Source of the DNA: a virus
Length of the DNA stretch: 47,246 nucleotides
Direction: 5' to 3' (one strand)
Virus record (IMG/VR): IMGVR_UViG_3300044639_000820
Span: 1-47,246 of that record
Part shown: in pieces, positions 46 to 39,636 of the stretch
How positions within the stretch are numbered: position 1 is the stretch's first letter
How the letters are laid out: every line of letters starts with the position of its first letter
Notes under the pieces: model-generated
Databases searched by the model: none
What the model saw: the letters and a program-made list of their open reading frames with translations, nothing else
What the model was told of the DNA's origin: nothing
Translations under genes and position numbers: made by a program

Positions 46-83
46 AATATATTAATTAAATTATTGTTTGTTTGTTGTATTTT

Positions 84-6180: not shown

Positions 6181-6181
6181 T

Positions 6182-6637: not shown

Positions 6638-7394
6638 CGTTTTAGTTTATTAAGTTGGCGTTGTTCAATTTCTTGCTTTTGTTTTTCGAAGGTAAGATAG
6701 GTGAGACATTGAGTAAGTCTATATCCGGTGACTGTGTCAAATCTTGTAATGTCTCCTTGAGCGAGTGCATAAATTGATTGATACCAACCCCATTGTTTTC
6801 CAAATTGAGCTTGTTCGCTAAACTCGTTTCCGTCTTCTTGTTCGTTTTTATCTGCCGTTCCAAATAAGTAAGCGTAGCTGTCAATAATTCGCTTCCTAAA
6901 TTCCAAAAAAAAACACTTGAACTTATTGCTATGTCTACCGGCGTAAACTTCATTAACTCGTGCATTTCTTCCATTGGTTTGTAATCAACTATTTCGTACT
7001 TGTCTTTGAACTTCATTTTTATAGGTCGGTACATTACAGCCATTGCTTTGTGATAATCTTCCCACTTTTGCAAGTTGTTCTCAAGGTCTACGTATTCGCC
7101 AAAACTTATTTCTTCAAGGTTTGTAATAAAGCCAAATTCTTGTGTTCCTATTTTGAACGTTGGTTGAAACTTCGGCTTTTCGCTAAACAACTTTGTAAAG
7201 TGTGTTATTAATTCGTTTAAACTTGTTAGCTTCATTTTCACGATGTCCTTTAATTCTATACCGCAGAATATTTGCACCATTTTTTGTGCAATAAATTCTT
7301 CGTCATTGCTTCCTTGCTGAACCTTTAAAAATTCTTGGTAGCTTTTTAACGGTATTTCGTTTAAACTTGTTGGAACATTTATTTCTAACTTCAT
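6634..7394 (-). CDS. Tail assembly chaperone, -1 frameshift fusion (~253 aa)
   Basis: Slippage by -1 on the T run at 6905-6913 joins the first 163 codons to the overlapping frame 6906-6634. That frame has no ATG of its own and opens at a TTG inside the slip site. The fused tail (FGKQWGWYQSIYALAQGDIT, then a Leu/Glu/Lys helix) looks like a folded conserved domain. It ends in an ATGA overlap with the next gene. The arrangement matches lambda gpG/gpGT, where both forms are needed to assemble the tail shaft. Copy B conserves both frames and the slip site. The ratio of products cannot be predicted from sequence. Confidence 0.72.
6642..7394 (-). CDS. Tail assembly chaperone, unshifted form (250 aa)
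   Basis: Zero-frame product of the chaperone locus. Residues 90-140 carry SFGEYVDLENNLQKWEDYHK followed by AMAVMYRPIK, a pattern I associate with phage tail/baseplate chaperones. The frame crosses a run of nine T at codons 161-164 (GTT TTT TTT TGG) and continues another 87 codons to a stop at 6642. It probably binds the tape measure during tail assembly, as lambda gpG does. Copy B (36104-36856) has the same length and the same T run. The C-terminal ~87 residues are Asn/Lys-rich and less protein-like than the -1 reading of the same bases. Confidence 0.7.
   Translation of the reverse strand: MKLEINVPTSLNEIPLKSYQEFLKVQQGSNDEEFIAQKMVQIFCGIELKDIVKMKLTSLNELITHFTKLFSEKPKFQPTFKIGTQEFGFITNLEEISFGEYVDLENNLQKWEDYHKAMAVMYRPIKMKFKDKYEIVDYKPMEEMHELMKFTPVDIAISSSVFFWNLGSELLTATLTYLERQIKTNKKTETSLANKLNLENNGVGINQFMHSLKETLQDLTQSPDIDLLNVSPILPSKNKSKKLNNANLIN
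6904..6914 (-). promoter_or_regulatory. Slippery site for -1 frameshift in tail chaperone
   Basis: The minus strand reads G, nine T, then GG. In the zero frame the codons are GTT TTT TTT TGG, so T_TTT_TTT allows both P- and A-site tRNAs to re-pair in the -1 frame. The identical run is at 36366-36376 in copy B. A homopolymer this long could also cause RNA polymerase slippage. Confidence 0.7.
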
Positions 7395-7404
7395 ATCTTA
7401 ATAA

Positions 7405-7569
7405 TTAATTATTCGTGTTTTTGTTGTGTTCGTTTTTTTGTATGTAATCGTAAGCTTGTTTTAGCATATTAATATCTCGGATGTCACGTAAATAAATACG
7501 AATCTTTACACCTTTTTTTTGGTATATGTAAATTTGTACCGCTTGCATCATTACTTCTAAATCGTTCAT
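7405..7569 (-). CDS. Small conserved protein, 54 aa
   Basis: The ATG at 7569 overlaps the TGA of the large terminase (ATGA). The product (MNDLEVMMQAVQIYIYQKKG, then basic residues and a polar Asn/Lys tail) has the same length as the copy B gene at 36867-37031 with about four substitutions. It lies between terminase and the tail chaperone. Function is not recognised. Conservation and coupled start are the reasons for calling it. Confidence 0.72.
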   Translation of the reverse strand: MNDLEVMMQAVQIYIYQKKGVKIRIYLRDIRDINMLKQAYDYIQKNEHNKNTNN

Positions 7570-8771
7570 CGTATAAAATATAAACCTTTTGTTGGATTGT
7601 CTAATTGATATGCTACTGCGTAACGCAAAGCATCAATGCAATGATTGTGCGCATCTTGTGGTGTTTTTGACTTTTTTTCCAACCAACAATAGTTGTTTAG
7701 TTCTTTGATTAAATCAATACTGTCTTCACTTATTATTAAGTCGTAATCCTGTAGTAGACTAATTCCATATATCACAGAATCCGCACCTTTGATTGTAGGG
7801 ACTACATTATTTCCAAGTGCGTTTAATTCGCTTATAAGTCTTGGTTCTGAATTATCACCAACTATTAAATCTTTGTTTGCAAACTCTGAATTTAACCTTG
7901 CTATTTGGCTTGTCGTTAACGCTTGTTTGTAATATAGCAACTTAACGTAAATGATTTTGTTTGTCTTGTCTATGTTTGTCTTAACTAACGTTGTAGGGTC
8001 TGCGCTAAATCCGTAATCTTGACCGTACACACTTACTCCAACTTCTTTAAAGTCTCCTATTTTCCAATTGGTAAATATAACTCCTTCAGCTTTGTCTAAC
8101 CAACCACCAAGTATTGTGTGTTTGTATTTTTCAGGTCTTCGTTCCTTGATGTATTCAACCTGTTTTAAAAAAGACTCGGATAGGTTTTCGATATTATCCA
8201 AGTACGTTGTGTGTATGTAGGTAGTATCGTTTTTTATTAGTGTTGCTCCTTGCTCTATTCCTTTACTCTCAAAGAACTTATCGTAAATAAAATGTTCTTT
8301 TGTCGTAGGGTTTAAAATTAGAATAACTCGGTTTTGTTTTGTCTTGTGCCTTATTGATAAATCTATTTTATCGAAGGTATCTTCGTCTGTTAATTCTTCA
8401 GCTTCGTCAAGTACCCACGTTGTAACTCCTTGTAAAGATTTTAAATTTGCCGTTTGTGTTCCAGAACTTGTCTTTATTCCTTTGAATATTATTTTGCTTC
8501 CTGTTACTATATTTATTATTTCGTCTTTTGTTACAACAAATTGGTCTTCCATTTGCATTAACTCAATCTTTTCTATAAACTCCGGTATAATCGAAATGGA
8601 TGCTGAAACTAAAGTGTAACGTGTGAACAATACAACGTGTCCGCTTTCCTTCGTTAAAAGAAGCAAGAACGTTGTAACGCTGTAAGACTTGGACGAACCA
8701 CGACCACCTGTTACAATAAAGTAACGTGAAGGACTTCCTAAATAATTAAACTTCTTATTTAAGACTATCAA
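7566..8771 (-). CDS. terL: Large terminase subunit (TerL), 401 aa
   Basis: Packaging motor ATPase and nuclease that cuts concatemeric DNA and drives it into proheads. Walker A is GGRGSSKS at residues 22-29, and Walker B with the catalytic glutamates is VLDEAEE at 120-126. A coupling-type ILNPT lies at 152-156. The RNase H-like nuclease acids appear at D252 (QDYGFSADP), D306/E309 (VGDNSEP) and a late DAHNHCIDALRYA segment. It has the size of compact PBSX-type terminases. It overlaps TerS by 17 nt. Copy B (37028-38233) is ~97% identical in protein. Confidence 0.95.
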   Translation of the reverse strand: MIVLNKKFNYLGSPSRYFIVTGGRGSSKSYSVTTFLLLLTKESGHVVLFTRYTLVSASISIIPEFIEKIELMQMEDQFVVTKDEIINIVTGSKIIFKGIKTSSGTQTANLKSLQGVTTWVLDEAEELTDEDTFDKIDLSIRHKTKQNRVILILNPTTKEHFIYDKFFESKGIEQGATLIKNDTTYIHTTYLDNIENLSESFLKQVEYIKERRPEKYKHTILGGWLDKAEGVIFTNWKIGDFKEVGVSVYGQDYGFSADPTTLVKTNIDKTNKIIYVKLLYYKQALTTSQIARLNSEFANKDLIVGDNSEPRLISELNALGNNVVPTIKGADSVIYGISLLQDYDLIISEDSIDLIKELNNYCWLEKKSKTPQDAHNHCIDALRYAVAYQLDNPTKGLYFIR

Positions 8772-9090
8772 TTTTAAACAAGTCTTTTACATCAAAGTCG
8801 GAAACGTTCAAGTTAGTATCGGTTGTTTGTTTAGGCGCACCATAGCAACTATCCATAAGTGCTTTGTAAGCATTAACATCGCCTTTACCTGCCTTTAATA
8901 ACATAGCCAAAGTAATTGCTTGTTCTTGAGTTAAAGTTTCTTGTTCGCCTGTTAAAACGTTCTTTTGACTTGAAGCAAATTCTAACAACTCCTTTACAAT
9001 TGTGCTGCGGTTTTTACTTCCTTTTGGTCTTCCGGCAGGGTTACTTACTTCACCTTTTTTAAATGGTTTTAAATTTTCTTCGTTTGCCAT
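8755..9090 (-). CDS. terS: Small terminase subunit / DUF5681-like protein, 111 aa
   Basis: The N-terminus KKGEVSNPAGRPKGSKNRST is a basic GRPKGSKN segment typical of small terminase-like DNA-binding proteins in Bacteroidetes phages. A helical C-terminus follows (LTQEQAITLAMLLKAGKGDV). Position immediately before and overlapping terL supports the role of recognising the packaging site. Copy B is at 38217-38552. The family name is from memory. Confidence 0.75.
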   Translation of the reverse strand: MANEENLKPFKKGEVSNPAGRPKGSKNRSTIVKELLEFASSQKNVLTGEQETLTQEQAITLAMLLKAGKGDVNAYKALMDSCYGAPKQTTDTNLNVSDFDVKDLFKIDSLK

Positions 9091-9116
9091 AACTTCACTA
9101 TTGTTTCATTATTGAA

Positions 9117-9506
9117 CTATACTTCTTCAGTCGTTGTTTCTTCTGTTTGTTCTGGAGTGTATTCAGCGTGAATTATTCGCAGCTTACTTACTAAATCACG
9201 TAAACAACTTGAACAAGTGCTAAACGTTAAATTTTGGTTTAATACACGGTTGTTAATTGCTATTAGACTGTTTTGTTCATCGCTTGTTAGTGTGTTCGTG
9301 TTTTGCTTAAAATAAGCGTCTAACGTGTTAAACTCATCTTCGGTTAAACACTTCGGTTTTGCATACGGAAACAGTTTGTTTAACTTTTCTTTTCGTTCTT
9401 CACATCCGCAATCTTCTCCTGCAACAAATTTAACAACCTTATCAATTCCTGTTGCTTTTGTAATTTTCGCTAATGTGTCTCCTAATCCTTTACTTTCGTT
9501 TTTCAT
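9117..9506 (-). CDS. Cys-rich conserved phage protein, 129 aa
   Basis: Cysteines form pairs: CGC near residue 33, one near residue 54, and CSSC near residue 98, suggesting a zinc- or disulfide-bound fold. The N-terminus is GLGDTLAKITKATGIDKVVK, and the C-terminus is Thr/Glu-rich and probably disordered. It is translationally coupled to the sigma-like gene (4-nt overlap) and precedes TerS. The copy B protein (38579-38962) keeps every cysteine. Such genes are frequent beside terminases in flavobacterial phages, but I know no function. Confidence 0.65.
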   Translation of the reverse strand: MKNESKGLGDTLAKITKATGIDKVVKFVAGEDCGCEERKEKLNKLFPYAKPKCLTEDEFNTLDAYFKQNTNTLTSDEQNSLIAINNRVLNQNLTFSTCSSCLRDLVSKLRIIHAEYTPEQTEETTTEEV

Positions 9507-10042
9507 TTTGTTTTTTTTATTAGTTCGTAATCTTGGTTTATAAAATCTTCGTAGTCTTCACCTACGTTATTTTTAATTCGTTTTTTACAAGTTTTAACGG
9601 TGTTAAATATACTTGTTACGCTTATGTTAGTCTCTGCACTTATTTGTCTTAAACTTTTATTCGTGTTTTTGTAAAGTTCAAATAATTGTTTGTCGTACCA
9701 ATGCCAACTTTCACATTCTAAATCTACGTTGTTCAACAGGTCGTTGTATGCTTCGTTTTCTTCTGTGTTGTTTTCTTCTGCTAAATTGTAAACGTCTTCT
9801 AAAGGTATAAATTTGATTTTGTTGTTTTTGTTCACGTGCTGAAGAAAAGTATTTTTTAAAGCTAACCACATATAACCTTTACTTATGTTTCCGTCTTTAA
9901 ATAGTTTTTCTTCGCTACTCCATTTCATTAACATTATGTAAGTTTCCTGCACGATGTCTTCAGCAAAGAAGTATTCGCCAAATTGGTTAACCATTTTAAC
10001 CCATTCGTTATGGTGTTTTGCAACCTTTGTTAACCATTCCAA
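9503..10042 (-). CDS. Sigma-70/ECF-like transcription factor, 179 aa
   Basis: Residues 24-40 (YFFAEDIVQETYIMLMK) match sigma region 2, and about 125-155 (LRQISAETNISVTSIFNTVK) match the region 4 helix-turn-helix, separated by an acidic linker. It is the first gene of the late operon, between the early terminator and terminase, so it may redirect host RNA polymerase to late genes. No in-frame ATG precedes the conserved start in either copy; TTG at 10042 is the best start (an internal Met17 is the alternative). Copy B at 38959-39498 is nearly identical. Confidence 0.72.
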   Translation of the reverse strand: MEWLTKVAKHHNEWVKMVNQFGEYFFAEDIVQETYIMLMKWSSEEKLFKDGNISKGYMWLALKNTFLQHVNKNNKIKFIPLEDVYNLAEENNTEENEAYNDLLNNVDLECESWHWYDKQLFELYKNTNKSLRQISAETNISVTSIFNTVKTCKKRIKNNVGEDYEDFINQDYELIKKTK

Positions 10043-10065
10043 ATTTTCATTGTTTAGATATTAAG

Positions 10066-10098
10066 CAAATGTATGATTAATTTTTCAACAATAACCAA
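10066..10098 (-). promoter_or_regulatory. Candidate promoter for the late operon
   Basis: The minus strand has TACATTTG (10073-10066), an exact TAnnTTTG Bacteroidota -7 element, 24 nt upstream of the sigma-like start. The nearest TTG triplets upstream lie 15 or 22 bp away rather than the 19 bp seen in the two early promoters. Copy B conserves the -7 element (39529-39522). Confidence 0.5.
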
Positions 10099-10130
10099 AT
10101 ATATTTATTAACATTAATTTGTTTGTAACG

Positions 10131-10160
10131 AAAAAAGCGCAAACAATTAAGTCTGCGCCT
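10131..10160 (-). terminator. Intrinsic terminator ending the early operon
   Basis: On the minus strand GCGCAGAC, a six-base loop and GTTTGCGC (one G-U pair) are followed directly by TTTTTT. It lies after the lipoprotein cassette and before the late promoter. Copy B has the same element at 39586-39616. Confidence 0.85.
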
Positions 10161-10183
10161 ACCTTTTTAACTTTAAACTTTAT

Positions 10184-10279
10184 TTATTTTCTGAAATACT
10201 CTCTAATTATGACTGCGACAGCAAAATAAATTATGATTGCAATAGGAATACCTAATAAAATAAAAATTGTCGCTTTCAT
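10184..10279 (-). CDS. Single-helix membrane peptide, 31 aa (copy A only)
   Basis: The ATG overlaps the stop of the 133-aa lipoprotein gene (ATGA). The product is almost entirely one hydrophobic helix (TIFILLGIPIAIIIYFAVAV) with a basic C-terminus. It is absent from copy B, where the terminator directly follows the HTH-like gene, so it travels with the lipoprotein as a cassette. Function unknown; a partner of the lipoprotein is an inference from coupling. Confidence 0.6.
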   Translation of the reverse strand: MKATIFILLGIPIAIIIYFAVAVIIREYFRK

Positions 10280-10677
10280 TTTCTTTCAATTATTGGAAGT
10301 CCAGCTTCGGTTGGTATATAAATTGTTTTTCCGTGATTATACATCCCATCAACCATAATATATTTGATATAATCAGGATTGTTTTGAATAGCATCTGAAA
10401 CAAATTTTATAGCTTTTGCCTTTGCAAGTGCTTCAATTGCCTTTGCTTTAGAATTAGCTTCTGCTCTAATTTGTTTTGTTTGTGCTTCTAATTTCGCACT
10501 TTCATAATTGGCTTTAGCTTCTTCTATTCTTGCTTGTTTTTCATATCTTGCTTTCATTAGAATACCTTTGCCATCATTTTCACGGTCTAATCTTTCTTGT
10601 TGACGATTAAAATCATAACAACTTGTTAAACTTCCAATTGCTAAAATTACAGCAACAATTTTAAATGTTTTTTTCAT
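10276..10677 (-). CDS. Lipoprotein with coiled coil and prohibitin-like C-terminus, 133 aa (copy A only)
   Basis: The signal peptide has a lipobox ending LTSC at C20. Residues about 25-90 form an Ala/Lys/Glu-rich amphipathic coil (repeated EAKA, AKAKAI), and the end DGMYNHGKTIYIPTEAGLPI resembles the C-terminus of SPFH/prohibitin proteins such as HflC. The SPFH core domain itself is missing. It sits alone at the distal end of the early operon and is absent from copy B, typical of a recently acquired moron. A role at the host envelope, for example superinfection exclusion, is speculation based on lipidation and gene placement. Confidence 0.75.
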   Translation of the reverse strand: MKKTFKIVAVILAIGSLTSCYDFNRQQERLDRENDGKGILMKARYEKQARIEEAKANYESAKLEAQTKQIRAEANSKAKAIEALAKAKAIKFVSDAIQNNPDYIKYIMVDGMYNHGKTIYIPTEAGLPIIERK

Positions 10678-10688
10678 AATTTATTTTT

Positions 10689-10880
10689 TTATTTATTTAT
10701 GTAATAATCTATTTTTTTTAGTGTTGATAGTGAAACGTCTTTGCCTTCTAAAAAGTTTGTAAGCTGGAAAAAGTGAAATTTACTTCCTTCTTCCTGTATC
10801 TTTTTAACTATGCTGTTTCGTGTTTTAAACGCTAAAAGTTTCTTTACTTCAGTTCGTAACTGTTCGTCTTGTATGTACAT
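10689..10880 (-). CDS. Small HTH-like protein, 63 aa
   Basis: MYIQDEQLRTEVKKLLAFKT is followed by FHFFQLTNFLEGKDVSLSTL, a pattern like the helix-turn-helix of small Cro/XRE-type proteins. The ATG at 10880 is chosen over a possible upstream start at 10907 because copy B (39637-39828) begins exactly there and because it sits 2 nt past the neighbour's stop. It is the last shared gene of the early operon. Specific targets are unknown. Confidence 0.6.
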   Translation of the reverse strand: MYIQDEQLRTEVKKLLAFKTRNSIVKKIQEEGSKFHFFQLTNFLEGKDVSLSTLKKIDYYINK

Positions 10881-10881
10881 A

Positions 10882-11145
10882 TCAAAATGGTAAATCGTCT
10901 TTTGCATCTAAATTAACATAACTTGGTTGTTTTAAAGTTCCGTTAATTTGTGGTTCATCTGTTTTAATATACGGCTCACTAAAACTTGCTGACATAAATT
11001 TAACTCCTTTTGCTGAAGTCTTCATCCATAACGCTACTTCCATTTCTTTGCCATTTACGTTTACCTTGCCTTTGTAGTCTGGGTGGTTTTCCGCTTTTTT
11101 GTTGTCGTTCTTAAAAATTGCACCTGTGTTAATTCTTGTTTCCAT
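10882..11145 (-). CDS. Small single-stranded-DNA-binding-like protein, 87 aa
   Basis: The start METRINTGAIFKNDNKKAEN and core GKVNVNGKEMEVALWMKTSA resemble a compact beta-barrel family common in Bacteroidetes phages and often annotated DUF736-like. A Pro/Asn linker and an acidic hydrophobic tail (DDLPF) follow; an acidic tip ending in Phe is typical of SSB proteins that recruit partners. The tail is the same in copy B (39830-40090). Context among ERF, nuclease and ATPase genes fits DNA metabolism. Confidence 0.6.
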   Translation of the reverse strand: METRINTGAIFKNDNKKAENHPDYKGKVNVNGKEMEVALWMKTSAKGVKFMSASFSEPYIKTDEPQINGTLKQPSYVNLDAKDDLPF

Positions 11146-11151
11146 TTTTAT

Positions 11152-11358
11152 TTATTTAGATTGTTTGTATTCGTGTTTTAGTCGCTCCAAGTAAAGAACG
11201 AAGTCCATCGCTTCTTCTTGTGCGTGTGTTAGCCATTCTAACGTTGTTAAATCCGTTCGTTCTAACGTTGTCTTGTATTTCTTTATTCCTGCTTCTGAAC
11301 GTTCTTTAAATTTAGCCATTACGCTTAAAACGTTTTTGTCTTGTATTTGTATGTTCAT
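11152..11358 (-). CDS. Helical MazG-like/conserved phage protein, 68 aa
   Basis: The ATG at 11358 overlaps the stop of the preceding membrane peptide. The motif KFKERSEAGIKKYKTTLERT then LEWLTHAQEEAMDFVLYLER resembles proteins annotated as MazG-like nucleotide pyrophosphohydrolases; the EE..D pair could bind metal. Copy B (40097-40303) is essentially identical. At 68 aa it is shorter than full MazG domains, so catalysis is uncertain. Confidence 0.5.
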   Translation of the reverse strand: MNIQIQDKNVLSVMAKFKERSEAGIKKYKTTLERTDLTTLEWLTHAQEEAMDFVLYLERLKHEYKQSK

Positions 11359-11447
11359 ATCAACCAATTAAATAAATTGTAAATACCAACAGCAGCAAAA
11401 CCATAAATTGCTATCCAAATAATAATTGCTATTGTTTTTTCTTTCAT
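11355..11447 (-). CDS. Single-helix membrane peptide, 30 aa
   Basis: MKEKTIAIIIWIAIYGFAAV and a short polar end form one transmembrane helix. The start overlaps the upstream stop and the end overlaps the downstream ATG (ATGA at both sides). Copy B (40554-40646) encodes the same peptide, and most base changes there are silent, which supports coding. Function unknown. Confidence 0.62.
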   Translation of the reverse strand: MKEKTIAIIIWIAIYGFAAVGIYNLFNWLI

Positions 11448-11644
11448 ATTTTCACGTTGTTTTCGTTAATAAATTCGTTTAGTTTTTTCCTTACTTCAAA
11501 CATTTCTTCTTTGCCGTTGTACTTATACTCGCTTCTTAACCAATTGTCAAACTCACACAATGCTGAATAATAATTAATTCCGTTATTTGCAAATTCAAAA
11601 TCTTCTTTGTCTTCAGGTAAATTAAATTCAAGTATTGCTTTCAT
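11444..11644 (-). CDS. Conserved acidic protein, 66 aa
   Basis: MKAILEFNLPEDKEDFEFAN then YYSALCEFDNWLRSEYKYNG: a small protein of a type common beside recombination genes in flavobacterial phages. It starts in an ATGA overlap with the exonuclease stop. The copy B homologue is at 40643-40843 with the same ATG. No function recognised. Confidence 0.62.
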   Translation of the reverse strand: MKAILEFNLPEDKEDFEFANNGINYYSALCEFDNWLRSEYKYNGKEEMFEVRKKLNEFINENNVKI

Positions 11645-12312
11645 ATTGTTTCAATTAAACTGTTAAAATAAATCCTTGCTTCTTCTACTTTGTTTTGTAT
11701 TTCCCAAATAACAGTTTCATCACGTTCTATTTTAAATACTTTTACTTTCGTGTTTTTGGGTAAATGGTCGAAGTTATGTTTCTTTTCTACATACTCCCTA
11801 ATTTCTGCGTCTTCATCAATTTTAAATTGCTTCCAGTGCTCCCTGCGTATTTCGTCTTCAACTATTTCTAATGGTGTGTTTACTAAACAATAACAAAGTA
11901 GTGCTTCGGTTTTATTCGTCAACCAAAGGTAACCTTGAAGCTGAAAAAAGTACGCAGGTGTCGGTATTTCATCGTCAAAGAACGGAAACGTATGAGCTTC
12001 GTAACTGCATTTAATATCTAATAAAATTTCATTCGTGTTTACGTCTGGTGTTCCTGTAATAAATTCGTTGTTAAAATGTTCTTCGTTCTTAAAAATAAAT
12101 CCTAAACCCAAAACATCGTTTACCAAACTAATTGCTTCGTCTTCGCACTGTAAACCTTTGTCCGTGTAACGTGAACTAAATTCTTTTTTAATGCCGTACT
12201 TGTGTTCTAAAACAAGTTCTTGAATGTAACTCTTTGCCGTTTGGCTTAACACTTCGGTCTTGTTGCGTGGAGCGGTCATTAACCGCCCCAATGCTGAACA
12301 ACGTATTTTCAT
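11641..12312 (-). CDS. PD-(D/E)XK exonuclease, YqaJ/lambda-exo-like, 223 aa
   Basis: Likely 5'-3' exonuclease working with the ERF annealing protein in phage recombination. Visible motifs: acidic GLQCEDEA (E57/E59), TGTPD with D90, LLDIK with D99 and K101, and the QLQGYLWL motif (Q126, Y128) that follows the active site in YqaJ-type enzymes. All are kept in copy B (40940-41611), including ITGTPDV and DIKCS. It begins 1 nt into the end of the ParB-like gene in A, but follows ERF directly in B. Confidence 0.82.
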   Translation of the reverse strand: MKIRCSALGRLMTAPRNKTEVLSQTAKSYIQELVLEHKYGIKKEFSSRYTDKGLQCEDEAISLVNDVLGLGFIFKNEEHFNNEFITGTPDVNTNEILLDIKCSYEAHTFPFFDDEIPTPAYFFQLQGYLWLTNKTEALLCYCLVNTPLEIVEDEIRREHWKQFKIDEDAEIREYVEKKHNFDHLPKNTKVKVFKIERDETVIWEIQNKVEEARIYFNSLIETI

Positions 12313-13130
12313 TAGTATCGTAAATTAATTTTGTTTCTATTTCTATAATTATAAATATCTTCAATTAATGTTCTGTATTGGTCTGAATTAGCACAATCTA
12401 CCATTGCTGTTGGTTGTAATCTTATTTTGTGCATAAAATCATTAAAATCAAATGTTTCTTTTTGCAAAAGTCCTATCATTGTTCTTACAAACACACTTTT
12501 ATTATAACCAGTATAATAAGGTTTAACCATTCGTATTTTATTAGCCCAATCTTGAGCTAATTCAAAATCTTTGCCAACCCAAGTACCTTCTTCAAATACT
12601 TGTTGCGTATAAGTTTTGCTTCTATCTAACCTATATTTTTGAGCAGAATTACTATTATTACTTGATACATTTGCACACATTGGAATACAATCATTAAAAC
12701 TAAAATCGTCATTTTTTTCAACAAACTTTTTTAATTTTATATAAGATTCAATTCCCATATTTGCATATCCTTCCATAAAATCTTTTTTACCCCAATTTTT
12801 TTGATTAAGGTTTAATGTGTGAACTTCAGAAAGCGTATAACCTTTTACGATTATATAATAAATAAAAGATTCTGATTCTTTAGCAGCCATTAATCTGTGC
12901 TGCCCGTCAATCACTTCCATATTTTCATTAACTAAAATAGGGTTACACTTCATTCCATTAACATTAATTGAGTCAGTTAATCGTCTAACGTGTTGTAAAT
13001 TTGGAACTCTGTTTCCATCAATTTGTTTAAAAATTGACAAGTTACTTGTTTTGTAAACTTTGTTTACTTCGTTGTGGTTTTGCACTTGGGTACTATTATT
13101 CGCCATTGGTGCTTGTGTTAAATTAAACAT
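12312..13130 (-). CDS. ParB/Srx-fold protein, 272 aa (copy A only)
   Basis: Residues 35-130 look like the ParB N-terminal domain, with VIDGQHRLMAAKE at 74-86 as the GxHR-type signature that binds CTP or has nuclease activity in relatives. The remainder is helical with an Asn-rich patch. It lies between ERF and the exonuclease in copy A but is absent in copy B, where the two are adjacent. That makes it an insertion into a recombination pair. Partitioning, nuclease and regulatory roles all exist in this fold; none can be chosen here. Confidence 0.68.
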   Translation of the reverse strand: MFNLTQAPMANNSTQVQNHNEVNKVYKTSNLSIFKQIDGNRVPNLQHVRRLTDSINVNGMKCNPILVNENMEVIDGQHRLMAAKESESFIYYIIVKGYTLSEVHTLNLNQKNWGKKDFMEGYANMGIESYIKLKKFVEKNDDFSFNDCIPMCANVSSNNSNSAQKYRLDRSKTYTQQVFEEGTWVGKDFELAQDWANKIRMVKPYYTGYNKSVFVRTMIGLLQKETFDFNDFMHKIRLQPTAMVDCANSDQYRTLIEDIYNYRNRNKINLRY

Positions 13131-13142
13131 TATATATTTGTT

Positions 13143-13670
13143 TTATTGGTTACTAATTAATAATAAACTTTTGCTTTGTAATTCAGTTAAACTAAATTTT
13201 GCTGTTAGTTCTTCAACTGTATATTCTCCTTTGCTAATTGCGTCAATAGCTTTTTGAAAACGTGTGTTGTCAATAGATGGTATTTTAGGTTCGTGTTTTA
13301 CTTGTTCTCCAGAAGCGTCTGTGTCTTTGTCCGTAACTAAACCAAGCATCGAACTTAATGCGTAACGTCTTAAATAAGTAATTGCACTTCCTAAAACTTG
13401 AAACTCGTTCATTCCTTTTAAAATTACTCCCTGTGGAATATCAATTTTACTTTCGATACTTTCTGCGCTTTCAACGTGAAATAAACAAGTTGCAATTTGT
13501 GTTCCGTTAATTAGTTGTGTAAACCCTAATCCGTGTTTTTTTAGTAGCGGGTTTATTACTTCAAAGATTTTCGGTAAATCTGCATAAGTGTAACCGTAAC
13601 CTTGTGTTGCTTTGTGAATAACAGGTACTTCTTGTTGGAACGCTGCTAAACTTTTAAATAAATGTTTCAT
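13143..13670 (-). CDS. erf: ERF-family single-strand annealing protein, 175 aa
   Basis: MKHLFKSLAAFQQEVPVIHK then GYTYADLPKIFEVINPLLKK with LGFTQLI matches the N-terminal core of the ERF/Sak family, which anneals complementary ssDNA in phage recombination. The conserved TYLRRYALSSMLGL segment follows at about 105-120. The C-terminus is variable between copies (175 aa here, 171 aa at 41608-42123). It pairs with the nearby PD-(D/E)XK exonuclease and the small SSB-like protein. Confidence 0.88.
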   Translation of the reverse strand: MKHLFKSLAAFQQEVPVIHKATQGYGYTYADLPKIFEVINPLLKKHGLGFTQLINGTQIATCLFHVESAESIESKIDIPQGVILKGMNEFQVLGSAITYLRRYALSSMLGLVTDKDTDASGEQVKHEPKIPSIDNTRFQKAIDAISKGEYTVEELTAKFSLTELQSKSLLLISNQ

Positions 13671-13685
13671 AGTTTTTGTTTTAAA

Positions 13686-13817
13686 TTATTTGTTGTTATA
13701 AGTATTGCACATTGCAATAAATCTTTTTCTTGGTAATTTTCTAAATTGCTCGTAAGTTAAACCGTTTGCTTGTGCAATTAATACCATTTTTGCGTTTAAT
13801 TCTGCGATTGTTTTCAT
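13686..13817 (-). CDS. Small basic protein, 43 aa
   Basis: The ATG at 13817 follows an AT-rich leader and a strong promoter. The product is MKTIAELNAKMVLIAQANGL then a basic RKLPRKRF patch. Copy B (42139-42270) changes one residue only. It is the first gene after the internal promoter and precedes ERF, which suggests a role in recombination or regulation. No family recognised. Confidence 0.65.
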   Translation of the reverse strand: MKTIAELNAKMVLIAQANGLTYEQFRKLPRKRFIAMCNTYNNK

Positions 13818-13839
13818 AGTTTTTGTTTTTAATTATATA

Positions 13840-13869
13840 CAAATATACAAATACTTATTTAATAAACAA
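13840..13869 (-). promoter_or_regulatory. Promoter for the recombination genes
   Basis: Minus strand: TTG (13869-13867), 19 bp, TATATTTG (13847-13840), matching the Bacteroidota -33/-7 consensus. It is followed by an AT-rich leader and the 43-aa gene. The same elements and spacing occur at 42293-42322 in copy B. Confidence 0.72.
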
Positions 13870-13875
13870 CTATTT

Positions 13876-14232
13876 TTAATAAATATCTTCAAAAAAAATT
13901 GTTATCGGCAGTAAAACACCTTTGCTTGTGTTATTGTCACCGCCTAAAACATCTCGGTTTGTTCCTATCCATTTACGGCAATGTTCTTTTAATTTGTCCG
14001 TTTTTATAATTACGCAGTGAACATCGCTGAACCAAAAACAATAATAGTCGGCTTCGCTTGTTGCTATTCCTGAAGGTTTGCCCCTACTTTCATATTCTAC
14101 AAAAACGTTTTTAGTTTCTAAACATCGGAAGTCTCGTTTAACTTCTACTTTTTTTTGCAGTAAGTTTCCAAGTTCTTTTTCATATACTTGACCTACTTCT
14201 AAATCGTGTTTAAAGTCGTTGTTATAGTTCAT
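13876..14232 (-). CDS. PD-(D/E)XK-type nuclease, 118 aa
   Basis: The core VEVKRDFRCLETKNVFVEYE followed by SRGKPSGIATSEADYY matches a small phage nuclease family with D and E-x-E active-site residues and a conserved SGI..(S/T)EADYY segment. Holliday-junction or restriction-type activity is plausible for the replication/recombination locus. It overlaps NinG by 4 nt in A but is separated from it by an HNH gene in B (42329-42685). Confidence 0.65.
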   Translation of the reverse strand: MNYNNDFKHDLEVGQVYEKELGNLLQKKVEVKRDFRCLETKNVFVEYESRGKPSGIATSEADYYCFWFSDVHCVIIKTDKLKEHCRKWIGTNRDVLGGDNNTSKGVLLPITIFFEDIY

Positions 14233-14750
14233 TTTAGTTTTTGTTTATAGGTTTCTATTAATTCTTTTAGTTCGTCTTTTGTCCATTTTTTAACATCGTG
14301 TGCTTTTGCTTGAAGCTCCATTAACCTTTGCGCTCCTATTCGTTCTTTTATACCTATTTGATAGTTTAACAGGTTGCCGCTTAAATAAGTATTACACGCT
14401 TCACATTGCAAGTGTACGTTGTCTTCGTCAAACCTTACGTTACTATGTCCGCCTTGTGAATAGTAGTGTCCTGCATTTTCTTTTTTACAAGGTTTGTTAC
14501 AGGAAATACAATTTAGTCCAGTGTCACGAACACGAATAAATTTATTGAACACCTGTTGCGCTATTTTTAAATAATCGTTTGCAGTTTTTAAGTTCTCGAC
14601 TAACTTTTTTTTCTTCTTGTTCCATTCCTTTAACTTTTGTGTTTCAACCATTGCTTTTATACATTCGTTTTTTAAACAAAACTTTTGTAAGGTGCTGAAC
14701 GATGCAAATTCTTCTTTGCAGTTAAAACATTTTTTAGTTCGTGTTTTCAA
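14229..14750 (-). CDS. ninG: NinG/Rap-like recombination protein, 173 aa
   Basis: A zinc cluster C8-C11-C25-C30, a Lys-rich coil, then a conserved TANDYLKIAQQVFNKFIR and an HNH-like second cluster C81-C84...H95...C116-C119. This matches lambda NinG, which acts with phage recombinases at branched DNA. Residues 1-85 are almost identical to copy B, but from about residue 88 the two proteins diverge sharply (see findings). The start overlaps the stop of the coiled-coil gene. Confidence 0.82.
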   Translation of the reverse strand: MKTRTKKCFNCKEEFASFSTLQKFCLKNECIKAMVETQKLKEWNKKKKKLVENLKTANDYLKIAQQVFNKFIRVRDTGLNCISCNKPCKKENAGHYYSQGGHSNVRFDEDNVHLQCEACNTYLSGNLLNYQIGIKERIGAQRLMELQAKAHDVKKWTKDELKELIETYKQKLK

Positions 14751-15037
14751 AGTTCTTCTTCGTTAAATTCAATTATTTTTTTTAAGTCTTTTACTTCCTG
14801 TTTTAATTCTAAATTTATGTGTTGTAAATCAAAATTAATTTGTCTTGTAACTCTAAATTCTTTTTCTAATTGTTCGTAAACAACCATTGCTTTTTTTATT
14901 TCGTGTAAACTTTGTTCCATTGAACTTATTAAATCTGTTCGGTTAGGGTGTTTTGTTTTTATGTCTTCAATGCTTATTTTTAATTTTAAACAAGTGTGGT
15001 TTAAGTTTATTCTACTGCTTAATAAGTCAAGTTCCAT
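14747..15037 (-). CDS. Coiled-coil protein, 96 aa
   Basis: Predicted to be a helical rod: heptad-like Leu/Ile spacing from NHTCLKLKISIEDIKTKH to INLELKQEVKDLKKIIEF. Two nt separate it from the ATPase, and 4 nt overlap NinG. Copy B (43695-43985) has the same length even though the neighbouring ATPase is a different type, so it does not co-vary with the ATPase. Function unknown. Confidence 0.6.
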   Translation of the reverse strand: MELDLLSSRINLNHTCLKLKISIEDIKTKHPNRTDLISSMEQSLHEIKKAMVVYEQLEKEFRVTRQINFDLQHINLELKQEVKDLKKIIEFNEEEL

Positions 15038-15038
15038 T

Positions 15039-15926
15039 TTAAAAAGGTTTTAAGTTAATACTGTTTGTTGGTCTAAATTCCGAAATTACGTCTTTTCCAT
15101 AAACTTTAAAACCAAGTCCGTAATTATATTCGCAATAAACAGGGTCGTTAAGTCCTGTATGTTTTCCGCCTGTATCAATATCTTTAATTTTTTCAGTTGA
15201 AACCCACGTTACATATTTCATAACATCGTGTTTTATTAGTCTATGTACAACTATCATATCGTCGCACCTATTTGTAAATGCTTTGCCACCTTCTACGTGG
15301 TCTTTTAATGGTGCTTTTAAATGTCCTTTAAAGTCTCCGTCTGCGTAAATATTTGAACTCCTTCCGCTTTCAGTATTCGGGTGCGTGTTTATGTAAATTG
15401 TCATTCCTGTTTTATTTACAAATTCTCTTGCAGCATTCATAAATTGGTAGTTACCTTCGTAAGTCATATTCCTGTCTAAACCTGTAAATGGGTCAATAAG
15501 TGCTACATCTGCTTCGCTGTCTTTAAATATTTTAAATAATTCTTCGTGTTTATACAACCTGTCGTTTTTTACAAATGTAAAATATTGTTCCAAGTATGCG
15601 CTGTAGTTTCTTATTTCATCGTGGGTTAATTTTTTAAAATTTATTCCTGCATACATCTGTATTAAGTCTCGCAAAATTTGTCCGTGCTGGTTTTCACCGC
15701 TCCAGATTATAAACTTTAATTTGTGCTTTAGTGCAAGTGCTAAAAAATACCAATTAATAAAATACGTTTTACCTACGTTGTCGTGTCCTAAAATTATGTT
15801 TACTTGTTTACGTTTAAATTTTAAATAGTCATCAAGTCCGTTTCCAAGTTCTAATCCGTGTTTTATTTTACCGTCTCGGTAGTTCAATAAATAGTCAAGT
15901 GCTGAACCGTTAGTTAATATATCCAT
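15039..15926 (-). CDS. RecA/DnaB-superfamily ATPase, copy A type, 295 aa
   Basis: Walker A GHDNVGKT at 47-54, Walker B-like ADVALIDPFTGL at 139-150, a TIYINTHPN motif III-like strand and a late MIVVHR strand fit a DnaB/Twinkle-type helicase motor without an N-terminal primase-interaction domain. It probably serves as replicative helicase or loader. It overlaps the winged-helix initiator by 17 nt. The copy B protein at the same locus (43997-44914) shares only the general fold plan. Confidence 0.72.
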   Translation of the reverse strand: MDILTNGSALDYLLNYRDGKIKHGLELGNGLDDYLKFKRKQVNIILGHDNVGKTYFINWYFLALALKHKLKFIIWSGENQHGQILRDLIQMYAGINFKKLTHDEIRNYSAYLEQYFTFVKNDRLYKHEELFKIFKDSEADVALIDPFTGLDRNMTYEGNYQFMNAAREFVNKTGMTIYINTHPNTESGRSSNIYADGDFKGHLKAPLKDHVEGGKAFTNRCDDMIVVHRLIKHDVMKYVTWVSTEKIKDIDTGGKHTGLNDPVYCEYNYGLGFKVYGKDVISEFRPTNSINLKPF

Positions 15927-16548
15927 ATTTTCTTGCTTTTATTTCTTCTGGTGAAATACCTTCGGAAGTTGGTTGGTTTTTTTGTAGCCATTTAACAGCC
16001 GTTAAATATAAACTTTTATATTTAGTATTTCCTTTATAATTTTCAATGTCGTTTAAAATATTGTCAATTTGAGTAATTGTGTTTTTCTCTAACAACTTTT
16101 TTACTTCATCTTCAGTAATAAATAAGTGTTGAAATTCCCTATATATATTTTCTTTATTATTCTTTTCATTCTTGTTTGTTGTTGATTGTTTGTTAGTCGT
16201 TTGTTGATTGTTTGTTATTCGTTTGTTAGTGTCTTCATTTTCATCTTGGTAACATTCATATTTACAAATAGTTACGATAGTAAATTGGCTTGTTGATTTT
16301 ACTACAATTTCATTCGTTTTTTCTAACTTTTTTAAAATGGTTCTTATTTGCTGAATAGTAATTCCTGTAGCACTGGAAATATTACCTAAAGACGAAATAA
16401 ATTGCCCACGTTTTACATCGTTACCTTGCCATTTATTGTCTTTGTGGTTTGCTTTAATAACCATATACAAAAACAAGTGTACAGCTTCAGACTTATTAAA
16501 CCATTCCCAATCTAAAAACTTTCTGTGTATTTTAATCCAACCGCTCAT
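15910..16548 (-). CDS. Winged-helix replication initiator, copy A type, 212 aa
   Basis: The N-terminus MSGWIKIHRKFLDWEWF and a winged-helix region (about 45-90, SSLGNISSATGITIQQIRTI) are followed by a Thr/Asn/Lys linker at about 103-130 and a DnaD-like helical C-terminus. Such proteins bind the phage origin and recruit the helicase encoded next. The linker is encoded by tandem 22-bp DNA repeats (16182-16225). Only the first residues (GWIKIHR) resemble the copy B initiator. Confidence 0.7.
   Translation of the reverse strand: MSGWIKIHRKFLDWEWFNKSEAVHLFLYMVIKANHKDNKWQGNDVKRGQFISSLGNISSATGITIQQIRTILKKLEKTNEIVVKSTSQFTIVTICKYECYQDENEDTNKRITNNQQTTNKQSTTNKNEKNNKENIYREFQHLFITEDEVKKLLEKNTITQIDNILNDIENYKGNTKYKSLYLTAVKWLQKNQPTSEGISPEEIKARKYGYIN
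16173..16225. repeat. Iteron-like tandem repeats inside the initiator gene (candidate origin)
   Basis: Two 22-bp units (16182-16203 and 16204-16225) differ at one base. Each contains TGTTTG and CGTTTG (minus: CAAACA/CAAACG), giving YGTTTG starts at 16173, 16187, 16198, 16209 and 16220, so 11-bp phasing over four copies. Since 22 is not a multiple of three, the repeat is conserved as DNA, not as peptide. The placement parallels the lambda ori iterons inside gene O. Confidence 0.7.
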
Positions 16549-16550
16549 AA

Positions 16551-17039
16551 CTAAATATTTTTTAATGCGTTTTGATATGCTAAATGTGCTTGGTATTCAT
16601 TAATAAAAAAACCTAAACTTTTGTTTTTTCCGTTTATTAAAATTCTCGCACGCCATTTTTTAGTATCTTTTCTCCAATAAACACCCTTGTATTGACTTGA
16701 ATATTTACCTTGTGTTTTATGGGAATTAAACCTATTTGTTACTATTTGTAAATTTTCAACTCTATTATCTAATTTATTATCATTAATATGGTCGATAACT
16801 AATTTATGTCCACAAACTTTATGTCCTAAAAATGATTGAGATACAAGTTGATGAGCTGTATAAACATTATATTTATTTTTTTCTTTCCAATTTAAACTAT
16901 ATTGCCAATATCCTTGTTTACTTAAACTACCTTGCAATAATTTTTCAACTCCATTTTTTAAAATAGATTTTAATCTTCCTGTATTTGATATTAAATACCT
17001 TCCTTCATAATCTACAACATCCTTCCAAATTTCTTCCAT
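16551..17039 (-). CDS. HNH homing endonuclease with NUMOD4 and AP2-like domains, 162 aa (copy A only here)
   Basis: Residues 1-30 (EEIWKDVVDYEGRYLISNTG) are a NUMOD4 DNA-binding motif. About 60-110 form the HNH domain with LVIDHINDNKLDNRVENLQI. Residues 115-160 (YKGVYWRKDTKKWRARILIN) look AP2-like. It is inserted between a pseudoknotted leader and the initiator gene; copy B has the leader but not this gene. It is a selfish DNA-cleaving element, not needed for phage growth. Confidence 0.88.
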   Translation of the reverse strand: MEEIWKDVVDYEGRYLISNTGRLKSILKNGVEKLLQGSLSKQGYWQYSLNWKEKNKYNVYTAHQLVSQSFLGHKVCGHKLVIDHINDNKLDNRVENLQIVTNRFNSHKTQGKYSSQYKGVYWRKDTKKWRARILINGKNKSLGFFINEYQAHLAYQNALKNI

Positions 17040-17155
17040 AACTTTAATTTTTTTATATAAAAATACCCTTGCTCAATCCGTTGCGTCTAACTTCAACTTC
17101 ATAAACAAGGGTAAGAATTCCTTTTGTACTTATAATGTTAGACGAGTACAATTGC
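17040..17155 (-). ncRNA. Pseudoknotted 5' leader upstream of HNH gene
   Basis: On the minus strand three helices can form. P0 is TTGTACT/AGTACAA (plus 17145-17151 with 17124-17130). P1 is CGTCTAAC/GTTAGACG (17137-17144 with 17084-17091). P2 is ACCCTTG/CAAGGGT (17106-17112 with 17065-17071). The 5' half of P1 lies in the P0 loop, and the 3' half of P1 lies in the P2 loop, making a pseudoknot. P2 is followed by ATTTTTAT about 25 nt before the ATG. Copy B conserves the layout with paired substitutions. It could be an attenuator or translational operator. Confidence 0.72.
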
Positions 17156-17186
17156 AAATTTAATAATTAATTTTAAATAAACACGA

Positions 17187-17543
17187 TTAATAAAATTTAT
17201 TTTTTATTCTTAACTGAATTTTACGCAAGTCTTTTAAATTCTTTGCTTCTTTTATTTCTTTACGCAAGTCAAGTTCTGGACGTTCTAAACTCAAAAGCAA
17301 TTTGTAGTATTCAATGTCGTGTAAAAATAACTTGTCGTTTACATCGCTTAAATCTTGGTAAGTTTTTAAACCGTGTAAAATAGTTGCGTGGTTCATATTA
17401 AATAAACTTCCTATTCCTTTAAGTGTGTGTCCGTCTTCGCGTAGCTTCCTAAACAAATAAATTCTCCTGTGTACTATTTCACGTTTTCGGTTTTTCTGTG
17501 CAAGTCCGTCTTGTTCAATTATTTGTTTTATTAATTCTATCAT
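17187..17543 (-). CDS. DnaA domain-IV-like DNA-binding protein, 118 aa
   Basis: Residues 24-62 include HRRIYLFRKLREDGHTLKGI and FNMNHATILHG, matching the helix-turn-helix signature (basic helix plus HxT.LH) of DnaA domain IV that reads DnaA boxes. No AAA+ domain is present, so it can bind DNA but not act as an ATPase. The C-terminus is a Lys/Arg-rich helical region. Copy B (45665-46021) differs at three positions. Its place two genes before the helicase suggests a role in origin recognition or host DnaA mimicry. Confidence 0.75.
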   Translation of the reverse strand: MIELIKQIIEQDGLAQKNRKREIVHRRIYLFRKLREDGHTLKGIGSLFNMNHATILHGLKTYQDLSDVNDKLFLHDIEYYKLLLSLERPELDLRKEIKEAKNLKDLRKIQLRIKNKFY

Positions 17544-17561
17544 TTTTATAGTTTTTACTTG

Positions 17562-17771
17562 TTATTTATAAGTTTCGTTGTAGTAATTTTCTCCATGTCT
17601 ATGTTCAAGACTCTCATAAGCATCAATTATCTGTTGCTTCTCCATTTTTTTAGCTTGTTGAAAAATATCACTTGTTATTCTATCAATAAATAACTTTCCA
17701 TTCGAATCTTTATTCCAACTTAATTTCTCTGAACATAATTTTTCAAATAACCATTCTACTGCTGTTTTCAT
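17562..17771 (-). CDS. Conserved 'TAVEWL' phage protein with variable middle, 69 aa
   Basis: The start MKTAVEWLFEKL and the segment AKKMEKQQIIDAYES then NYYNETYK match a protein common in Bacteroidetes phages and of unknown role. The equivalent in copy B (46018-46287) has 89 aa, with the same ends but a different centre. It overlaps the upstream gene by 4 nt. Confidence 0.6.
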   Translation of the reverse strand: MKTAVEWLFEKLCSEKLSWNKDSNGKLFIDRITSDIFQQAKKMEKQQIIDAYESLEHRHGENYYNETYK

Positions 17772-18052
17772 TTTTCTATTTGTTTAATTTCAATTATAAT
17801 GTCATCGTTTTTTTGTATTAAGTTTTTAACGTGCTGGAAGTCGTAAGCTTCAACTATTCGTGTTTCTAACTTAACAGGTGCGCCAACATACGCCCAAGTT
17901 TTAAATGTTGCTTTAAATCGTTTCATAGGTTTAAATTTTATTTGTTCGTTTTTTTTAATTCTGCAAATCTCAAGGTATAACCCCAAGTCAAATGAACCGC
18001 GCCATTGTCGTTGCCACCAATCTAATTGCTCGTAAGTAGTTCCACTTTTCAT
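17768..18052 (-). CDS. Conserved hypothetical protein, 94 aa
   Basis: A Trp-rich N-terminus (YEQLDWWQRQWRGSFDLGLY), then MKRFKATFKTWAYVGAPVKL and a charged helical end. Well conserved in copy B (46284-46568). Coupled by ATGA overlaps to both neighbours in the early operon. No family recognised; the internal Met before KRFKATF could be a second start. Confidence 0.6.
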   Translation of the reverse strand: MKSGTTYEQLDWWQRQWRGSFDLGLYLEICRIKKNEQIKFKPMKRFKATFKTWAYVGAPVKLETRIVEAYDFQHVKNLIQKNDDIIIEIKQIEK

Positions 18053-18381
18053 AACTCGTAATAAAAAGTGTAGTTACTATCGTCATTGCTTGTTTTCCAT
18101 TCCCAAAAGTTGTAGTGTGCTAAATCGCTGTTTATTGCTTCCTGCATCTCAAGGCGCAAATCTTCCAAAAGACGAACACCTAAAACGTGCGGTTGTAAAT
18201 TGTCGTCTGTTTCTGTTTCCCACTTCTGCGAAATTTCAACTTCTAATTCAATAAACGCATATTCACTAACTTCATCGTAATCGTTAAATTCCCAAGTTCC
18301 TGCTATTGAATAAGTCCAACCTGTAAATTCGTAGGTTAATTCCCAACCTTTATTCCAAAATTCTAAATTTCTATTTTTCAT
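18049..18381 (-). CDS. Conserved acidic aromatic protein, 110 aa
   Basis: Rich in Trp, Glu and Asp (NRNLEFWNKGWELTYEFTGW; later EMQEAINSDLAHYNFWEWK). Net negative, soluble, no motif recognised. Copy B (46565-46897) is about 94% identical. Acidic early phage proteins are sometimes DNA mimics or inhibitors, but nothing here is specific enough to say so. Confidence 0.58.
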   Translation of the reverse strand: MKNRNLEFWNKGWELTYEFTGWTYSIAGTWEFNDYDEVSEYAFIELEVEISQKWETETDDNLQPHVLGVRLLEDLRLEMQEAINSDLAHYNFWEWKTSNDDSNYTFYYEL

Positions 18382-18382
18382 C

Positions 18383-18520
18383 TTACAACGCTTTTAAATA
18401 CATTAAACAATATAACATACCACCCAACACAATAAAAGCCGTTAGAGTGCTTAAAAAGTGCTTTAAAAACGATTTGTGTTCTTCGGTTGTTGGTGTAAAG
18501 TAATCAATTAAATTTTTCAT
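18383..18520 (-). CDS. Small membrane protein, 45 aa
   Basis: MKNLIDYFTPTTEEHKSFLK followed by a hydrophobic helix (LSTLTAFIVLGGMLYCLMYL). Copy B (46899-47036) has Leu-to-Phe and Lys-to-Arg changes only. It lies among the first early genes. Function unknown. Confidence 0.65.
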   Translation of the reverse strand: MKNLIDYFTPTTEEHKSFLKHFLSTLTAFIVLGGMLYCLMYLKAL

Positions 18521-18524
18521 AGTC

Positions 18525-18689
18525 TTATTTTTTAAATTGGTTAAATAAATTTTCTACTTCCTGCAATTGCTCATCGTCTAAAAATGTTGCTAAAGTCTGG
18601 ATGATTAAATGCAGTTGGTTCGTGTTTAGTTTGTTTTCTTGTTGTTGTGTTTCCAAGAAATCAATTACTTTGTTAAATTCTGTTTTCAT
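18525..18689 (-). CDS. Small helical protein, 54 aa
   Basis: The start is placed at the ATG at 18689, which has the AAACT leader seen before several early genes, rather than an upstream TTG. The product KTEFNKVIDFLETQQQENKL then a Leu-rich acidic helix lacks a recognisable fold. The copy B homologue is at 47041-47205. Confidence 0.6.
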   Translation of the reverse strand: MKTEFNKVIDFLETQQQENKLNTNQLHLIIQTLATFLDDEQLQEVENLFNQFKK

Positions 18690-18704
18690 AGTTTTTAAAT
18701 TAGT

Positions 18705-18723
18705 GTGCGTTACCAAGTCGCAC
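18705..18723 (-). promoter_or_regulatory. Small conserved hairpin in early leader
   Basis: GTGCG/CGCAC (5 bp) with a nine-base loop lies 16 nt upstream of the 54-aa gene. The same bases occur at 47221-47239 at the window edge. There is no U-run, so it is not a terminator; it may shape mRNA stability or translation. Confidence 0.35.
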
Positions 18724-18737
18724 CCCTTGTTTTTTTA

Positions 18738-18947
18738 TTACGCTATTGTCTTTTCGTAGCTTATGTTATTTTCTATTAATTCTTTTACTAACATTTGCTC
18801 TTGTAAGTTTAACATATGGCTACCAAAATGGTGTTCGTATTTAAATAATCCGTTTTGAATTAATGTAATATAACCTGTTGATGTAAAAGTTTCTACGTTA
18901 GTTCCTTTTGTTGTGTTGTAAGTGTAAGTTGTTGTTAAAGTTTTCAT
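18738..18947 (-). CDS. First early gene, 69 aa hypothetical
   Basis: Thr-rich MKTLTTTYTYNTTKGTNVET, then a polar C-terminal helix. It directly follows the early promoter at 18982-19011, so it is probably transcribed at once after infection. The copy B counterpart would lie beyond 47246. No family recognised. Confidence 0.6.
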   Translation of the reverse strand: MKTLTTTYTYNTTKGTNVETFTSTGYITLIQNGLFKYEHHFGSHMLNLQEQMLVKELIENNISYEKTIA

Positions 18948-18981
18948 AGTGTTTGTTTTTGTTTTCGTTAATAATTATATG

Positions 18982-19011
18982 CAAATATATATACTATTTT
19001 AATAACTACAA
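18982..19011 (-). promoter_or_regulatory. Early promoter
   Basis: Minus strand: TTG (19011-19009), 19-bp spacer, TATATTTG (18989-18982), 35 nt before the first early ATG. The spacing is identical to the promoter at 13840-13869. It fits the Bacteroidota consensus recognised by primary sigma, so the host enzyme probably starts early transcription here. Confidence 0.75.
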
Positions 19012-29477: not shown

Positions 29478-29515
29478 AATATATTAATTTAATTATTGTT
29501 TGTTTGTTGTATTTT

Positions 29516-35642: not shown

Positions 35643-35643
35643 C

Positions 35644-36856: not shown

Positions 36857-36866
36857 ATCTTAATAA

Positions 36867-38552: not shown

Positions 38553-38578
38553 TTTTTCGTTATTGTTTCGTTATTAAC

Positions 38579-39498: not shown

Positions 39499-39521
39499 TT
39501 TTTAATTGTTTAGATATTAAG

Positions 39522-39616: not shown

Positions 39617-39636
39617 ACGTTTTTAACTTGAAAATT

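Follow-up and report, generated by a model that had tools for sequence, protein, structure and literature searches.

A kissing-hairpin leader RNA in Bacteroidota phages, judged to be a new class of cis-regulatory element upstream of putative early operons

The 47,246-nt stretch of viral DNA analysed here (the window) carries on its minus strand leader RNAs of about 90 nt in which two hairpins are locked loop to loop. Computation places their four helices on one RNA strand, between a promoter and an open reading frame (ORF), and the leader is judged to represent a new class of cis-regulatory 5' leader RNA of early operons in Bacteroidota phages that is absent from Rfam.

In leader A, hairpin 1 (17125-17150) consists of the stem P0 (UGUACU at 17150-17145, AGUACA at 17130-17125) and a 14-nt loop made up of CGUCUAAC and AUUAUA. 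The former (17144-17137) is complementary to the kissing strand GUUAGACG (17091-17084) of hairpin 2 (17064-17113), which is built from the 12-bp helix P2 (UACCCUUGUUUA, 17113-17102, with UGAGCAAGGGUA, 17075-17064), an internal loop of U.U and GAA/GGA, helix P3 (GUUG, 17097-17094, with CAAC, 17083-17080) and a 10-nt loop of AA followed by the kissing strand. After P2 come a U-run (17059-17063) and the start codon ATG at 17039. The promoter -7 box TAAATTTG lies at 17155-17162, and with the spacing known from F. psychrophilum (PMC9723704) the predicted transcription start site is 17150, the first base of P0. Leader B is organised likewise on the same strand: the -7 box TAAATTTG at 45632-45639 is followed by hairpin 1 (45603-45624), with P0 formed by GUUC (45624-45621) and GAAC (45606-45603) and a loop of GGUCUCAC (45620-45613) and GUAAUA, then by hairpin 2 (45540-45589), in which P2 (AACCCUUGUU/AACAGGGGUU, 45589-45580 and 45549-45540), the GAA/GGA internal loop and P3 (GCAG/CUGC) carry a loop of AA and GUGAGACC (45567-45560), and finally by a U-run (45541-45537) and an ATG at 45516. 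In the minimum-energy folds of both leaders, the best nested structure comprises P0, P2 and the extra helix P3, and the complementary 8-nt strands sit in the two loops that are left.

All helices named for A and B in an earlier note on this DNA are thus present in the sequence of the minus strand, as are two compensatory changes between the copies in the helix it termed P1 (C-G to G-C and A-U to C-G) and the U-G pair in P2. Its three interleaved helices have to be supplemented, however, by the overlooked P3, which itself covaries between A and B, and while the loop pairing stands, the proposed pseudoknot is better described as a pair of kissing hairpins (ABACBC) with an 8-bp loop-loop helix. 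The motifs ATGAAG and CGGATT, regarded there as fixed, mainly represent the symmetric purine internal loop (U.U plus GAA/GGA) and the closing P3 pair, and the U-run said to be next to the start codon does exist but lies in A about 24 nt from the ATG.

A third, divergent leader (class II) at 43066-43148 on the minus strand was recognised by descriptor and by a homologue in cultured phages, and is probably the third leader to which the same note alluded. It comprises P0 (GUAG/CUAC), the kissing strands GUUACGG/CCGUAAC, P2 (CCUUAGCG/CGUUAAGG) and P3 (GAG/CUC), with an internal loop UAAGUA/GAAAG and a U7 as unpaired parts. It covaries with its homologue upstream of a NUMOD4 endonuclease gene in tooticki-type phages, where the kissing strands read GUCGUCG/CGACGAC and the linker is the same. 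A generic descriptor of hairpin, kiss, hairpin and U-run finds exactly three sites in the window, namely A, B and 43066-43148, versus 0.25 per shuffled window, and when anchored on TAnnTTTG it finds the same three versus none in 10 shuffles. Positions 1-19000 and 29430-47246 are two diverged genome-length copies of a phage of about 30 kb (80-95% DNA identity, offset about 28.5-29.5 kb), so that leaders A and B stem from two related genomes; the duplicated window is probably due either to assembly round the genome via two strains or to tandem phages.

From 5' to 3', the consensus of the family consists of TATATTTG, 4-7 nt, P0 of 4-6 bp, a loop of the 8-nt kissing strand plus AxxAUA, a linker of about 13 nt that is A/G-rich and then UUAUU, and hairpin 2 with P2 of about 11 bp, the symmetric internal loop (U.U, GAA/GGA), P3 of 4 bp and a loop of AA plus 8 nt, after which the U-run follows. 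The TAnnTTTG promoter motif is present in 160 of 177 cases, with 4-7 nt between TTTG and P0; since the -7 box of F. psychrophilum occupies -12 to -5 (PMC9723704), P0 would begin at about +1 to +4. U-runs of at least five are found in 94 of 100 aligned relatives, and the downstream ORF mostly begins 21-28 nt beyond the first base of the U-run, whatever the gene. This conserved spacing of promoter and start codon supports the initial proposal that the leader RNA precedes an early (replication) gene. At the remaining TAnnTTTG promoters in the window, leaders are short and unstructured, and plain hairpin-U6 terminators are also present in the window. No conserved TAnnTTTG was seen by eye on the strand opposite the leader. 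Likewise, a conserved short ORF was not found within it: the ORF at the conserved AUG has 2, 4, 9, 15 or more codons and five members have no AUG, and a leader-peptide attenuator was rejected as the reading frame is not conserved.

More than 100 distinct relatives of the leader exist in IMG/VR contigs. An exact pattern retrieved 84 IMG/VR stretches and a degenerate one 105, of which roughly three in four are genuine by inspection. With P1 and P3 left free, a third pattern gave at least 120 matches, and of the 107 distinct ones among the matches listed, 102 have at least seven of eight kissing pairs, 98 have all four P3 pairs and 94 combine both with U5; most of the remainder are unrelated coding matches. 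One contig (L226, around 790-900) holds a genuine-looking leader with a broken kiss, GGUCUGAC versus GUGAGAGC, which may have arisen by recombination between two loop types, and another (L462) has a single P3 mismatch.

Nearly all members were recovered by covariance-model search with E-values of about 1e-21 to 1e-10. In the resulting alignment of 100 instances (97 distinct rows, 28 pairs), 98.7% of 2,712 pair cells are paired, double compensatory changes occur at 25 of the 28 pairs, and 691 double-change cells compare with 198 in shuffles, these counts not being corrected for phylogeny. Sliding the partners by one column lets pairing fall to about 45%. An alignment of 31 members made by MAFFT alone gives 95.7% and double changes at 23 of 28 pairs. 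The consensus fold yields P0, P2 and P3, and as the model held only these three, the pairing of 99.6% in the kissing helix was not fitted by it. The members of both alignments were picked with a kissing filter, and the paired percentages are therefore inflated, which leaves the diversity of compensated pairs unaffected; the 107 matches of the P1/P3-free pattern provide the less biased estimate. Simple loop reversal is a weak control (24 of 107 still reach 8/8), and the slid columns are therefore preferred. Covariation, first claimed from A and B and to be sought in further homologues by means of a covariance model, is massive among the more than 100 relatives, contrary to the outcome that the note would have taken as refuting, an absence of covarying homologues beyond these. 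Finally, 233 G-U pairs versus five A-C combinations in the 100 aligned instances indicate that the element acts as RNA, in the window as that of the minus strand.

With respect to gene content, leader A directly precedes a NUMOD4/HNH endonuclease gene (16551-17039; PF07463, PF13392), followed by genes for a DnaD-like helicase loader (15910-16548; PHROG 2514) and an ATPase/DnaB_C-like protein (15039-15926; a weak Pfam match). Leader B is followed by a DnaD-like helicase loader gene (44893-45516; PHROGs 2514 and 186), which occupies the same place as 15910-16548, and then by a helicase-like gene (43997-44914; PHROG 5482/18375), and the third leader by another NUMOD4/HNH gene (42687-43061; Pfam), all on the minus strand. 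Upstream of leader A on this strand, 17187-17543 codes for a 118-aa protein resembling the C-terminal HTH of DnaA (PF08299, E 5.8e-7, narrowly short of the curated cut-off), which has a homologue at 45665-46021. NUMOD4/HNH genes stand directly behind both leader A and the class II leader, and the latter seems to travel with HNH genes. When the family is grouped by the first gene downstream, helicase-loader-like and DUF6291 proteins make up the commonest cluster (87 loci); HNH endonucleases, small unknown ORFs and ParB-like proteins also occur, and one phage has two leader copies, one of them before a PAPS-reductase/ParB-like operon. The early timing of these transcripts is assumed from gene content. 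In some relatives without a leader (L069-L076), just after the DnaA-HTH gene, a DUF6291-like gene begins within the upstream gene's stop codon (TAATGG), which suggests that the cassette of promoter and leader can be gained or lost whole.

The leader also occurs in cultured phages. Model R2 detected it in Flavobacterium phage FL-1 (E 3e-10), in Tenacibaculum phages JQ (E 1.2e-6) and Gundel_1 (before an antirepressor gene, E 6.6e-10), and in Flavobacterium phage hattifnatt9-1 (before a helicase gene, E 6.9e-7), which has three dissimilar copies. Descriptor scans and inspection added VK58 (Ficleduovirus), morran, lillamy, tooticki, stinky and elemoA as well as a second Gundel_1 copy between DnaA-like and replication genes, the last two resting mainly on inspection. 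The loops are swapped in VK58, morran and tooticki, where hairpin 1 carries AA+8 and hairpin 2 carries 8+AAUA-like; exchanged loop types are seen at L507 3640-3762, L512 4011-4110 and L513 2271-2365, as would result from a permutation of the kissing module. Comparison of three leader types with INPHARED by blastn gave only chance matches apart from a 44-nt piece in phage JQ, and matches to Klebsiella are coding coincidences. In 396 Bacteroidota genomes, a scan run without a prophage positive control, model R1 found no member at E<=0.01; in the scan of genome contigs all 48 matches were judged to be coding false positives, and a 28-bit match (L397) lacks the kissing pair. Of two additional scans, one of viral sequences gave no further genuine member under the descriptor, and the other gave nothing.

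The leader probably controls the expression level of the genes downstream, and most likely does so during transcription, in the manner of an attenuator. The reading that we favour, tentatively and at somewhat less than an even chance, is that of a cis-acting leader in which hairpin 2 and the U-run serve as terminator or pause and the kissing complex tunes read-through into the operon. Judging from promoter spacing, the transcript would start at hairpin 1 (P0), and as RNA polymerase transcribes the leader, the 8-nt strand of the first loop would pair with the loop of hairpin 2 to form an intramolecular kissing complex that might set how much polymerase reads through the U-run into the operon, whose first start codon, that of a replication gene or another early gene, follows. 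Hairpin 2 and the U-run may act together as an intrinsic terminator or pause site of moderate strength, and the degree of attenuation could depend on how stable the fold is or on a phage or host factor bound to it. As regards terminator-like features, a stem followed by a U-run of at least five occurs in the above 94 of 100 relatives, while terminator scores are borderline (median -1.8; 40 of 100 members above 0 and 60% below the threshold, which was trained on E. coli), the background being five of 470 T5 sites in the window above 0. From the U-run abutting P2 and these scores, we infer termination or pausing of moderate strength with read-through. Since the fold is kept in VK58, in L412 and in the second Gundel_1 copy, where U-runs are poor or displaced, termination cannot be the whole function. 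A conserved, mutually exclusive antiterminator helix was not seen, the consensus fold being P0, P2 and P3. The terminator/antiterminator or translational switch suggested in the earlier note is plausible.

An alternative, possible but clearly less probable, is a translational operator of the T4 gene 32 kind: a phage nucleic-acid-binding protein, nucleated at the 5' pseudoknot, would spread along unstructured A/U-rich RNA across the ribosome-binding site and thereby repress translation. The order of 5' pseudoknot, A/U-rich unstructured stretch and start codon matches such a layout, the leader tails, like the T4 operator (PMC535899), contain runs of the UUUAAA type, the 21-28 nt from U-run to ORF are tightly kept, and replication genes are often downstream. 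However, a U-run directly abutting P2 is not needed by such an operator, and a single autoregulated protein does not fit a leader that precedes many unrelated genes. Rather doubtful is an RNA antiterminator like put, a folded leader binding RNA polymerase so that it passes pauses and terminators along the early operon. Its position at the promoter and ahead of operons, its two or three copies in some phages, and conserved unpaired bases (loop AUA, GAA/GGA, linker) that suit a protein surface agree with this, but put has neither kissing loops nor a U-run directly after stem II, no relation to it is apparent in sequence or in Rfam, and no downstream terminators that the polymerase would have to pass are evident. 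Slightly less probable still is a trans-acting small non-coding RNA whose 3' end would be the U-run and which would work, e.g., by pairing of the kissing strand with other leader copies: the element has its own promoter and a terminator-like end, and the kissing strands vary among phages and differ between copies within one genome, yet the fixed distance to the downstream ORF and the lack of space for a further promoter favour a leader, and in nearly all members the kissing strand is satisfied intramolecularly. It is improbable that the compact knot merely shields the phage mRNA from decay, although the fold begins only a few nucleotides from the predicted 5' end and is not gene-specific, as this would leave the U-run unexplained and the leaders at other promoters in the window are short and unstructured. 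A replication origin, cruciform or other DNA-level element, or a coincidental terminator, is very improbable and largely refuted by the strand-specific G-U pairs. DnaA-like and helicase-loader genes do adjoin the leader, but the slid controls also speak against such an element, as do copies before non-replication genes such as those for HNH and antirepressor proteins.

Little is known about the control of early transcription in Bacteroidota phages, and the leader class is common in freshwater viral contigs. As cultured phages with available hosts carry it, its function is directly testable; it offers a naturally occurring, compact kissing complex in which the loop sequences are free to evolve as long as they pair, and the promoter-leader cassettes could help to locate early operons in uncultured phages. 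More speculatively, and with a chance that we consider low, the superfamily might form a phage-wide system of RNA control, in which one three-dimensional module acting on the host RNA polymerase coordinates replication and other early operons through sequence-orthogonal copies per genome, with loops swapped between hairpins in one branch and loop specificity possibly serving copy-number or incompatibility control.

No leader in the window, in six cultured-phage loci or in four further phage segments matched Rfam 15 at the gathering threshold, and relaxed E-values gave nothing credible, which agrees with the initial impression that it is no named riboswitch or ribozyme. The genes downstream, considered with a riboswitch in mind, are diverse phage genes. 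A search of the open-access literature found no description of such a leader. Although in the pistol ribozyme (RF02679), too, a hairpin loop pairs downstream and a helix encloses this pairing, it was rejected as no leader matched; the pistol ribozyme of Gundel_1 (MT732474; L531 2564-2642), serving as positive control, was found at 65.6 bits (E 1.3e-9). HDV- or pistol-like ribozymes were also rejected for want of a P3 equivalent and of an Rfam match, and a K-turn was set aside since the flanks of GAA/GGA, which resembles Kt-7, form strictly symmetric and covarying pairs. In Flavobacterium phage morran9-1, which also carries a kissing leader, Rfam identifies a DUF805b RNA (L528 142-176, 52 bits) just upstream of the start of an apparently ParB-like gene.

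Among known phage RNAs, putL of HK022 follows closely on an early promoter and forms two stem-loops in about 70 nt, the phage having two copies (PMC9378689). The leaders likewise show two stem-loops just downstream of promoters whose early timing is assumed from gene content, at the start of the transcript and in more than one copy per phage, and both RNAs probably act co-transcriptionally; put, however, has no loop-loop kissing helix and no adjoining U-run, is unrelated in sequence and belongs to a different host phylum. With the gene 32 operator of T4 and RB69 the leader shares a 5' pseudoknot, unstructured A/U-rich RNA and a phage replication gene, but that operator has a pseudoknot of about 28 nt and a single target gene and protein (PMC535899), in contrast to about 90 nt and two kissing hairpins before many genes. 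Differences also exist with respect to plasmid replication leaders, as the phage leaders show by eye no conserved antisense promoter and have no conserved leader peptide. In the IncIalpha/IncB repZ and pT181 repC leaders, loop-loop pairing likewise precedes a replication-initiation gene, but an antisense RNA regulates in trans. ColE1 RNAI/II and the HIV-1 DIS form kissing complexes with a loop-loop helix of 6-8 bp that is intermolecular; the AA that precedes the kissing strand is reminiscent of the DIS loop, whereas the kissing complex of the phage leader is intramolecular.
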